Positions 2,861 to 21,382 of a stretch of DNA of 64,000 bases are shown piece by piece; position 1 is the stretch's first letter, and every line of letters begins with the position of its first letter. Made by a program: the position numbers and the translations under genes. The notes beneath the pieces were generated by a model, which made no database searches, was not told where the DNA came from, and saw only the letters and a list, made by a program, of their open reading frames with translations. The stretch is from assembly GCF_900180345.1 (NCBI RefSeq), contig NZ_FXLV01000001.1, forward strand, positions 1 through 64,000, given 5' to 3'. The stretch comes from Bathymodiolus heckerae thiotrophic gill symbiont (GTDB lineage: Bacteria; Pseudomonadota; Gammaproteobacteria; PS1; Pseudothioglobaceae).

Positions 2861-3257
2861 AATCGTGCGTTACCTTGGCAGTTTTTCCCAGCATGATTGA
2901 AGCGGAGCAGTATTTATCAGCCGATAAACTAACGGCTTTTGCTACTTTTTTCTCGTTGAGATTTTCTCCTTCTACAACAAAATGAATATGAATATTGGTA
3001 AAAACTTTGGGATGCTCATCTGCTCGCTCCGCAGTGATTTCGGCACGGCAATCACGCACAGTTTCACGCATTTTTTTGAGTGTTGAAACTACATCAATAG
3101 TTGTGCAGCCACCCATACCGAGTAGCAACATCTCCATAGGACGGATGCCTAAATTTTTACCGCCCAGCTCTTCAGGTCCGTCCATAACCACACCGTGGCC
3201 ACTGGCAGATTCGCCAACCATCATCATGTCATTAATCCACTTAACGACTGTCTTCAT
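2844..3257 (-). CDS. OsmC/Ohr family protein
   Basis: A 137-residue OsmC-superfamily protein. Members use two cysteines to reduce organic hydroperoxides or act as general thiol-dependent redox proteins in the cytosol. Both cysteines are present: C51 in MGGCTT and C117 in KYCSAS. The spacing and the early M[10 protein letters not shown] helix resemble the YhfA-like subgroup more than Ohr. The start overlaps the end of trpC by 4 bp (ATGA), so the two are translationally coupled. The in vivo substrate cannot be decided from sequence. Confidence 0.88.
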
Positions 3258-4942: not shown

Positions 4943-4963
4943 AAACCTTAATTTTTATTGATA

Positions 4964-5063
4964 GAGGTCTTTACATAAATACGGATGATTAGCAGAATTC
5001 AATTTTTGTCAACTTGGTAAAAAGTAGATTTTTGATGATTATTCATATTTATGCAAAGGTTTC
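4964..5063 (+). mobile_element. MITE-like palindromic element, copy 2 (100 bp)
   Basis: The element runs from GAGGTCTTTACATAAATA to TATTTATGCAAAGGTTTC and is flanked by direct repeats TGATA (4959-4963, 5064-5068). It is a 61-bp internal-deletion form of the 161-bp element. The deletion joins a CAACTTGGTA-like motif that occurs twice in the long form. It lies between the 3' ends of kdsA and the cytochrome b561 gene, where its hairpin could act as a transcription terminator. Confidence 0.8.
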
Positions 5064-5109
5064 TGATACGAGGTATCCACCTAAAATCTTTGCTTTGAGT
5101 GATAAGTAT

Positions 5110-17658: not shown

Positions 17659-17663
17659 TAATA

Positions 17664-17763
17664 GAGATCTTTGCATAAATATGGATGATTAACAGAATTC
17701 AATTTTTGTCAACTTGGTAAAAAGTGGATTTTTGATGATTATTCATATTTATGCAAAGGTCTC
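17664..17763 (+). mobile_element. MITE-like palindromic element, copy 4 (100 bp)
   Basis: A short-form element (GAGATCTTTGCATAAATA to TATTTATGCAAAGGTCTC) flanked by TAATA direct repeats (17659-17663, 17764-17768). It is inserted in the few bases between the convergent MBL-hydrolase and ppnP genes, and its final C now forms part of the ppnP stop codon (TAG, 17763-17765). Removing the element and one TAATA restores a TAT-TAA ending, which would add one tyrosine to the ancestral PpnP. Confidence 0.82.
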
Positions 17764-18042
17764 TAATAAGAACAACAATAATCAATCACTTCTTTGACCT
17801 GTAATTTAAAACTTGAATTTTTTGGCACTTCAAACGATGTGCCTTTTGTAAAGGTTTGCCATTCATGTTCATTTGGCAGTAGTACATCCGCTTCGCCTGT
17901 TTGAATTTCTACCAATTCATTCTCAGTAGTATCAAACGCATAATCACCTGCCATCGGAAAACTCAACAGTGCGGCTGCTCACTCTGCCCTAAAAATAAAT
18001 ATTGGCTTCTTTGATGACAGTTACATTTTCAAAATTTGACAT
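17763..18042 (-). pseudogene. ppnP: pyrimidine/purine nucleoside phosphorylase, degraded
   Basis: The C-terminal 67 codons (MAGDYAFDTTENE, then VLLPNEHEWQTF and FKLQVKEVIDYCC) match the small cupin-fold phosphorylase PpnP (YaiE, DUF1255, about 95 residues). The true start is the ATG at 18042, nine bases after pepA, encoding MSNFENVTVIKEANIYF. That frame hits TAG at codon 18 (17989-17991), continues as GRVSSRTVEFSDG, then fails because several codons are missing and the frame shifts into the downstream part. There are thus a nonsense codon and an internal deletion, plus a mobile element at the 3' end. Confidence 0.85.
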
Positions 18043-19437: not shown

Positions 19438-20145
19438 ATGTTTAAAAAGATACTACTTACTCTCGCCCTCGTTAGTACCCAATCTATTGCCGACAAGTCT
19501 ACCATTGAAAACCTAAATTCAATATTCGGCACTATAGATATTGAAAAAACCCCTTTTAAAGGCGTTTATGAAGCCATTGCTCAAAACCCAATTCAATCTT
19601 TTTTTGTCTCGGAAGATGGTAAATACTTGATTCAAGGTGATATTATCGACTTAACCACTCGCCAGAAAATGCCAAACAGCAACAAAGTGCGGCAACTAAA
19701 AAAAGCGCTGTTAGATAGCGTTGAAGATAAAGATAAAATTATCTATCCGGCAAAAAATGAAAAATATGTAATACATGTATTTACCGATGTAGATTGCCCA
19801 TACTGCAAAAAACTACATAGACAAATGCCCAAAATAAATGAATTTGGGATTACCGTCAAATACCTCGCCACACCATTGGCATCATTGCATCCAGAAGCAC
19901 AAGGAAAAATGGAAAAAATTTGGTGCGCTAAAGACAGAAAAAAAGCGATGCACGACTATAAAACTAAGAGTATTGTGCCTAATTCGGATGACTGTAAAAA
20001 CCCAGTTGCGCAGCAATTGCTATTATCTCAGCAACTAGGAGTGAACGGCACACCTGCTATTTTCCTTTCTGATGGTACGCACTTGCCAGGCTATCTACCG
20101 GCCGACAGACTCTTGCAAGCCATCAAGCGCACACTTGGAAAATAA
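19438..20145 (+). CDS. dsbC: DsbC-like thiol:disulfide interchange protein
   Basis: A 235-residue periplasmic disulfide isomerase. It has a signal peptide (about residues 1-18, cleavage near SIA-DK), an N-terminal dimerisation domain, and a thioredoxin domain with active site CPYC (C120, C123) in VDCPYCKKLH. It also has the cis-proline loop GVNGTPAIF and a second cysteine pair (IWCAKD and SDDCKN), as in DsbC. It is presumably active on multi-disulfide exported proteins and c-type cytochromes. The gene overlaps the start of rsmB by 11 bp. Confidence 0.92.
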   Translation: MFKKILLTLALVSTQSIADKSTIENLNSIFGTIDIEKTPFKGVYEAIAQNPIQSFFVSEDGKYLIQGDIIDLTTRQKMPNSNKVRQLKKALLDSVEDKDKIIYPAKNEKYVIHVFTDVDCPYCKKLHRQMPKINEFGITVKYLATPLASLHPEAQGKMEKIWCAKDRKKAMHDYKTKSIVPNSDDCKNPVAQQLLLSQQLGVNGTPAIFLSDGTHLPGYLPADRLLQAIKRTLGK

Positions 20146-21382
20146 CACCCGAACCATTGCCCTAGGCGCAATCTGTTCAGTTGTTTTAGAGAAAAAATCA
20201 CTCTCCACTTTCATCTACCCAGCAGAGGTTAGTGCACTAACAAAATCTCTAGTTTTTGGCACAATTCGCTTCTACCACCAGCTCAACGATATTGTCTCTA
20301 GACTACTAAAACACTCACTTAAAAAAGAAGACTTAGATGTTCACTGTTTAATGTTGCTCGGCGCTTATCAAGTCTTACATTCTAATGTAGCAACACACGC
20401 CAGTATTTTCGAAACTGTGAATGTCGTTAATGAGCTCAACAAGCCTTGGGCAAAACCCCTAGTGAATGCCATTCTTAGGGAAATAGACCGACAAAAAGAC
20501 GATTTACAGCAACAAACACATTACACCCATCCAACTTGGTTAGTGAAAAAAATTAAACAATATTACCCCAATAATTTTGCACAAATCTTCACCCAAAACA
20601 ACACCCAAGCCCCAATGACGCTACGCATTCACCCTAATTTCAACCAACGAGCCTTGCCCGTCTTTATGGATGGGCAAGGCTCGTTGGTTGAAATTGCACC
20701 ACAGGCAATAATTTTAAATAAAGCGGTTAATGTTTACGATATTCAAGATTTTGATAAAGGCTCGTGTTTTGTGCAGGATGCCTCGGCCCAATTAGCTGCA
20801 CCTTTGTTAAACCCAAAAGAGGGGGATTTGATTTTAGACGCTTGCTGTGCGCCAGGCGGAAAAACTACTCACCTTAGCGAATTAGCCCCAAATGCCACAA
20901 TCATTGCACTAGATAACAACAAGGAAAGGCTAAAACGCGTGCAAGAAAATATTGAGCGATTTACCATAAAAAACATCGCCCTACTACAAGGAAAAGCACA
21001 AACGCAAGACTGGTGGGATGGCAAATTATTTGATAAAATCCTGCTGGATGCGCCTTGTTCGGCCACGGGTGTAATTCGTCGCCATCCTGATATCAAACTA
21101 CTTAGAAAACCTAAAGATATCAGCGCTTTAGTCGCCCTACAAAAAGACATTTTAGACAATTTATGGACAATGCTCAAGCCAGGAGGCGTGCTACTATATG
21201 CTACTTGCTCAATTTTAAAAAACGAAAATGAAGCTCAAATTGCACAGTTTTTACAAAACCACTCAGACGCAGTTGAGGAAAAAATCATGCTTGATTGGGG
21301 GGTTGAAGCCACTCACGGCAGACAACAAATTCCGTGTTATGAATTTGACGGATTTTATTATGCTAAATTAACAAAAATATAG
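20135..21382 (+). CDS. rsmB: 16S rRNA (cytosine-967-C5)-methyltransferase
   Basis: RsmB methylates C967 of 16S rRNA. The 415-residue protein has an N-terminal NusB-like RNA-binding domain, then a SAM-dependent domain with FVQDASAQLAAPLL, DACCAPGGKTTHL, ALDNNKERL, and the two catalytic cysteines in LLDAPCSATG and ATCSILKNE. I prefer the TTG at 20135 because the frame upstream lies over dsbC and makes no sense as protein. An AGT-type start is not available nearby, so this start is uncertain. A 24-bp perfect inverted repeat lies in codons about 168-187, with odd local sequence ALPVFMDGQGSLVE. Confidence 0.9.
   Translation: MENNTRTIALGAICSVVLEKKSLSTFIYPAEVSALTKSLVFGTIRFYHQLNDIVSRLLKHSLKKEDLDVHCLMLLGAYQVLHSNVATHASIFETVNVVNELNKPWAKPLVNAILREIDRQKDDLQQQTHYTHPTWLVKKIKQYYPNNFAQIFTQNNTQAPMTLRIHPNFNQRALPVFMDGQGSLVEIAPQAIILNKAVNVYDIQDFDKGSCFVQDASAQLAAPLLNPKEGDLILDACCAPGGKTTHLSELAPNATIIALDNNKERLKRVQENIERFTIKNIALLQGKAQTQDWWDGKLFDKILLDAPCSATGVIRRHPDIKLLRKPKDISALVALQKDILDNLWTMLKPGGVLLYATCSILKNENEAQIAQFLQNHSDAVEEKIMLDWGVEATHGRQQIPCYEFDGFYYAKLTKI
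20636..20695. repeat. 24-bp perfect inverted repeat inside rsmB
   Basis: Bases 20636-20659 are the exact reverse complement of 20672-20695, with a 12-base spacer (gtctttatggat). The arms read AATTTCAACC...TTGCCC and their complement. An extended perfect hairpin inside an essential-type coding sequence is unusual; it encodes roughly residues 168-187 of RsmB. It looks like a templated inverted duplication that kept the reading frame. Confidence 0.95.

Follow-up and report, generated by a model that had tools for sequence, protein, structure and literature searches.

The hairpin inside the rsmB gene of the Bathymodiolus heckerae thiotrophic gill symbiont (genome G000) is, in our judgement, very probably explained by an intragenic REPIN that moved into the gene before this species and its sister species (G003) split. 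The whole stretch of DNA analysed (the window) comprises 64,000 nucleotides, and the gene concerned codes for a predicted RsmB, the C967 methyltransferase of 16S rRNA. Its product scores 462.7 bits against NCBIfam PRK10901 (cut-off 375) and 356.3 bits against TIGR00563 (cut-off 269), in both cases above the curated cut-off used to call an RsmB equivalog, and its best solved relative is the SUN protein, 1sqf/1sqg (E 4.5e-90). The gene appears to start with TTG at 20135, so that its start region overlaps the 3' end of the upstream ORF 19438-20145. The elements discussed below are the following.

20135..21382, + strand: rsmB, 16S rRNA (cytosine-967-C5)-methyltransferase, predicted from profile scores and the solved relative 1sqf/1sqg.
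20636..20695, + strand: the whole inverted repeat, with 27-bp arms, one G·T and a 6-nt loop; codes for NFNQRALPVFMDGQGSLVEI.
20636..20645, + strand: outer left arm AATTTCAACC, coding for N-F-N-Q (N-F-K-Q in G003).
20646..20662, + strand: left REP AACGAGCCTTGCCCGTC, sharing 16 of 17 bases with the contig-32 REP GACGAGCCTTGCCCGTC.
20648..20683, + strand: REPIN core CGAGCC...GGCTCG, 36 nt (12 codons), from the alignments of G000, G003 and the outgroup G011.
20669..20685, - strand: right REP in inverse orientation, the + strand reading GATGGGCAAGGCTCGTT; 15 of 17 bases shared with the contig-32 copies.
20686..20695, + strand: outer right arm GGTTGAAATT, with TTGGTTG in G000 where G003 and G011 have TTACTTG in common.

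Each of the arms, 20636-20659 and 20672-20695, is the exact reverse complement of the other; they form 24 pairs around a 12-base spacer and occupy rsmB codons 168-187 counted from the TTG at 20135, just as the preliminary description had it. With one G·T allowed they extend to 27 bp (20636-20662 and 20669-20695) and leave a loop of 6 nt. The same description had placed the hairpin in the linker before the catalytic domain; it does lie inside rsmB, but within the RsmF-B ferredoxin-like domain (Pfam PF22458, residues 133-201 of the predicted protein) and not in a free linker. Folded as RNA, the segment 20620-20710 reaches -54.2 kcal/mol, against a mean of -20.6 for shuffled sequences (z = -10.7; 0 of 200 shuffles as low). 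Among the seven inverted repeats listed in the window (arms of at least 16 nt, at most 100 apart), the rsmB hairpin is 96% complementary and the six others 78-81%.

A search of the symbiont's own genome with 111 bp around the repeat yielded two further hairpins on contig 32, C32:1621-1663 (91% identity) and 2999-3041 (89%), both outside the listed ORFs (at least 60 aa) and each preceded by a copy of a porin-like gene (named by eye) and a terminator-like hairpin. Inspected by eye, the contig-32 arm GACGAGCCTTGCCCGTC is itself an imperfect palindrome (G-C, A-T, C-G, G-C, an A·C mismatch, G-C and C-G, with a CTT loop), a structure typical of REPs, and the rsmB hairpin can be read as an inverted REP pair. 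The arrangement of two inversely oriented REPs around a short spacer is that of a REPIN, and we hold with high confidence that the hairpin core is one, even though the REPINs first described lie in extragenic space and this copy is inside a gene. Five of the six reading frames through the 38-nt REP pair are open. The 36-nt core, which sits between CAA and a leucine codon (the next bases in G011 and G003 being TTACTTG), is the likely inserted unit, and the outer left arm reads as mostly native to rsmB. In both arms the outer 10 bp pair perfectly and lie outside the REP; about five bases of the left outer arm recur in the contig-32 copies and none of the right, so that REPIN copying alone leaves the full 27-bp arms unexplained.

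At up to two mismatches the REP pattern has eight matches in G000, against one for the reversed control, namely the rsmB pair, the two contig-32 pairs and one match each on contigs 14 and 22. The dispersal is above chance, though the copy number is low and the places are few. The match on contig 14 is likely a single REP, and that at C22:12994, inside an ORF that we take to be ribosomal-protein-like, may be due to chance. By eye, no GTAG stands beside the REPs of rsmB or contig 32, which sets them apart from the GTAG superfamily with its unpaired GTAG at one end. The CGTC superfamily is described as having an unpaired end CGTC, complementary A/T at the first two stem positions and no associated transposase (PMC3733652); here the CGTC that ends the contig-32 arms is paired and the REP family adjoins a RAYT, which places it outside that superfamily too.

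Directly beside the second contig-32 hairpin lie pieces of a RAYT gene that has lost its 5' part and whose body is split by an abundant MITE-like inverted repeat. These pieces are 80-89% identical to the intact RAYT of G003, and it is by this likeness that the remnant is identified as a putative broken RAYT; its open 67-aa piece gave no Pfam match when run alone. At the orthologous locus of G003, on contig 119, the porin-like gene and terminator are followed by a REPIN, an intact RAYT (PF01797, 35.6 bits, cut-off 23) and then two more REPs. The REP pairs flanking this RAYT on both sides have the same head as in G000 and a different stem. The head GCCTTGC recurs across species, and the stem varies (GAAAGCCTTGCCTTC in G003, AGAGGCCTTGCCTCT in G011 and, at two loci, ACAGGCCTTGCCTGT). 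In G003 the stem GAAAGCCTTGCCTTC has 26 matches at up to one mismatch (control 0); it has a single, inexact match in G000, and the G000 stem has none in G003 at up to one mismatch. Although the RAYT of G003 adjoins the G003 stem, the old copy within rsmB of that species resembles the stem of G000; either the stem type changed at the RAYT locus or two stem types coexisted.

RAYT association of this REP family is seen in the contig-32 remnant of G000, in a RAYT fragment near REPs on contig 70 of G022 (Ca. Ruthturnera sp. CSMAG_640) and in the intact gene of G003, there with the other stem beside it. With that different stem beside it, the RAYT of G003 is no more than a candidate recogniser of the rsmB REP type. 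The other RAYTs found in the window's genome are 35-69% identical to that of G003 over the aligned pieces, and the stretches fetched around them contain GCCTTGC once each, without a REP stem around it. The RAYT on contig 26 has its own REPIN type; this second family, TCCCGAGCCGGG, occurs at L083 1927-1989 and L005 7931-7976 and has eight matches in the genome, all exact (control 0), one pair being beside that RAYT. Similar hairpins (AATTGAGACGCCGGGCTTCTCAATT and the like) at L286 952-978 and 1635-1663, on both sides of the contig-16 RAYT, possibly form a third REP family. The MITE-like inverted repeat, with ends near GAGACCTTTGCATAAATAT, is found in the window at 17659-17768 and 4955-5071 and also at L005 3160-3334 and 10505-10667; it is very abundant (143 matches in the own-genome search, many of them both strands of one palindrome), and the repeat splitting the contig-32 RAYT is one of its copies.

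The history of the insert could be followed among relatives. A match to rsmB was found in 51 of the 58 genomes searched (11 of 12 in genus g1), and 30 rsmB loci were fetched and aligned, the comparison that the preliminary description had proposed. Only G000 and G003 have the insert; the other 28 are without it, and no aligned distant relative has the arms, which would have spoken for a conserved functional element. The suspicion that the stretch is foreign to rsmB and keeps the frame was therefore well founded. G011 reads F-H-K-Q-S-L-L-A-V where G003 reads F-K-Q-[RSLPIFMDGQG]-S-L-L-E-I. On either side the two species have identical AAACAA and TTACTTG; in G011 AAACAA runs straight into AGC-TTACTTG, and in G003 the AAACAA and TTACTTG flanks enclose the insert. 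The net in-frame gain is about 33 nt in our reading of the alignment, the total gain in length over G011 being 30 nt, as G011 has one extra codon. Eight other members of the genus have five residues fewer than G000 and align poorly at the site, so the exact boundary of the insert is given by G011 alone.

Between G000 and G003, 9 of the 60 bases of the insert differ, as do 136 of the 1188 other bases of the gene. The dS values, 0.550 in the insert and 0.553 in the rest of rsmB, being equal, the insert would be about as old as the split between the two species, which fits one insertion event before it. With dN/dS of 0.16 in the insert and 0.07 elsewhere in rsmB, and 16 of the 20 residues of the insert region common to both species, the peptide appears moderately constrained, on few sites.

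From this point of view, a REPIN, which as two inverse REPs is a miniature element of a kind presumed to be mobilised by a RAYT (an HUH/Y1 transposase), would have entered rsmB before the two species split, and the RAYT lineage of contig 32 and G003 may have moved it as a single-stranded hairpin. Mobilisation by RAYT is here deduced from the sequences. The insertion may have been tolerated because the 12-codon unit is free of stop codons in the frame in which it is read and because the site lies in a stretch of the ferredoxin-like domain that varies in length among relatives. The insert would now code for RALPVFMDGQGS in the predicted RsmB, most likely as a tolerated passenger with no further function. 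Since the RAYT of G000 most similar to that of G003 is broken, REPs of this type can probably no longer move by themselves in G000.

A function of the hairpin itself, maintained by selection and exerted at the DNA or mRNA level through translation pausing or mRNA stability, appears very unlikely. In its favour, when changes in the core are polarised by the contig-32 copies, all five fall on the G003 branch and none on that of G000, against 36 and 54, respectively, in the rest of rsmB (46 unresolved); Fisher's p for 0:5 is 0.013, a post hoc value on small numbers. A value of 0.0005 for 0:9 was set aside, as three outer-arm differences look derived in G000. Maintenance is, however, hard to reconcile with the state of the sister copy, where the same 111-nt stretch folds at -20.3 kcal/mol in G003 versus -55.8 in G000 and 6 of the 27 pairs are lost and one is a G·T. 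As we read the five G003 core changes, three break a pair, one turns a pair into a weaker wobble and one strengthens an existing wobble. The hairpin is also absent from the other aligned relatives, and it is the peptide that is little changed.

Slightly less probable still is that the whole hairpin was made by template switching, a piece of rsmB having been replaced by the complement of its neighbour, as the preliminary description had proposed. The very high identity of the arms and the perfect pairing of their outer, non-REP 10 bp would favour such an origin. Dispersed REP copies of both core arms, one of them abutting the RAYT wreck, rule it out as the origin of the core, and the gain of about 33 nt relative to G011 does not correspond to an equal-length replacement; the core arms being dispersed REPs, the palindrome would have arrived ready-made. 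For a late, small matching of the outer arm only, template switching is plausible. In our reading of the alignment, the G000 branch has changed relative to G011 from AAA to AAC on the left and, at adjacent positions, from AC to GG on the right, the latter being what a templated event may produce, and jointly these changes complete the outer-arm pairing. Template switching can both create and repair stems (PMC8794818), and it may have polished the element rather than made it. It is a speculative and rather doubtful extension that the palindrome polices itself in the window's lineage, hairpin-templated correction keeping the arms alike and spreading the pairing into native rsmB codons while the sister copy decays; if true, a mobile-element insertion would keep rewriting the protein around itself. 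A chimera or assembly artefact at the hairpin, conceivable in a draft of 119 contigs, is practically dismissed by the separate genome G003, in which the same codons carry a diverged version whose dS matches that of the rest of the gene.

The intragenic REPIN of rsmB has counterparts in other genomes. G022 contains 13 matches of an almost identical REP with no more than one mismatch (control 0); CAACC, considered as a tail or target common to the rsmB and contig-32 copies, is absent beside them (by eye). Its pepN (PF17432) has an in-frame REP with five residues gained relative to all 18 aligned relatives. Another of its genes, presumably ygfZ, has two in-frame REPs 21 bp apart, its length equalling that of G012 and exceeding by four residues that of 12 genus-g1 loci (13 loci aligned); the two stand in tandem with a 21-bp period at L052 1480-1515, with a RAYT fragment within 1 kb. 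The REP in frame in the presumed tilS of G022 was rejected as an insertion, 16 of 18 aligned loci having the same length at the site and two being one residue shorter. Of the 26 matches in G003, one is inside a gene that we take to be amgK-like and a second lies close to the 3' end of a different long ORF; the former was likewise rejected, as most family members have the same length and three are two residues shorter (19 relatives aligned). Clean length gains are thus those of rsmB and pepN, and the other in-gene REPs may reflect replacement, conversion or chance. A match in G021, which reads like the C-terminus of SecA and which we assume to be that, was put aside. The REPIN pattern, scanned across the collection (a scan that may pass over records close to the window), gave six stretches, two from G022 and four from unrelated taxa; REPIN-like palindromes matching the 12-base arms exactly are present at L098, L099, L101 and L103, in Nocardioides, Salinisphaera, Streptomyces and Kiritimatiellae records.

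Several known systems bear comparison. The perfect inverted repeats in translated mitochondrial genes of Nematomorpha (PMC6649704) resemble the present case, but both of their arms encode conserved protein regions, whereas the rsmB core is a dispersed repeat. The Rickettsia palindromic elements (RPE, cited in PMC3733652) are, by their description, also in frame in protein genes and belong to a lineage other than that of the window's organism. The stem mismatch of the E. coli group in the TnpAREP/REP system (PMC8266576) may be likened by eye to the A·C mismatch of the contig-32 arm; there a conserved GTAG precedes the palindrome, while none is seen here, where the comparison is drawn from sequence alone. 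Related too is the REPIN/RAYT concept of extragenic hairpins formed by inverted REP doublets (Bertels and Rainey 2011, PMC3116915), with which our case shares the doublet hairpin and the REPs next to a RAYT gene; the rsmB copy differs in being coding, and the most similar RAYT in the genome is broken.

In-gene REP dimers have already been published. Di Nocera et al. (2013; PMC3733652) described intragenic GTAG/CGTC REPs as short palindromes inside ORFs of conserved proteins, more than half of them in dimers or groups; many of the genes concerned act in the synthesis and repair of DNA, and some modify RNA. The relevant passages of that paper do not name rsmB, and in the portions of the literature on this bacterial family that we retrieved we found no report of in-gene REPs of this kind. 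The rsmB repeat shares with those elements the palindromic dimer inside the ORF of a conserved protein and differs in that no unpaired GTAG or CGTC tag is seen. It adds another instance, in which a REPIN would have entered a conserved housekeeping gene in a single event and for which the site before insertion (G011), a sister copy with a weakened hairpin (G003) and the RAYT locus of that sister are all available. Taken with pepN and ygfZ, which have in-frame REPs in another genus, the case suggests that core proteins of the family acquire new peptide segments from RAYT-associated repeats. It also offers a small test of whether selection or template-switch repair keeps palindromes perfect.
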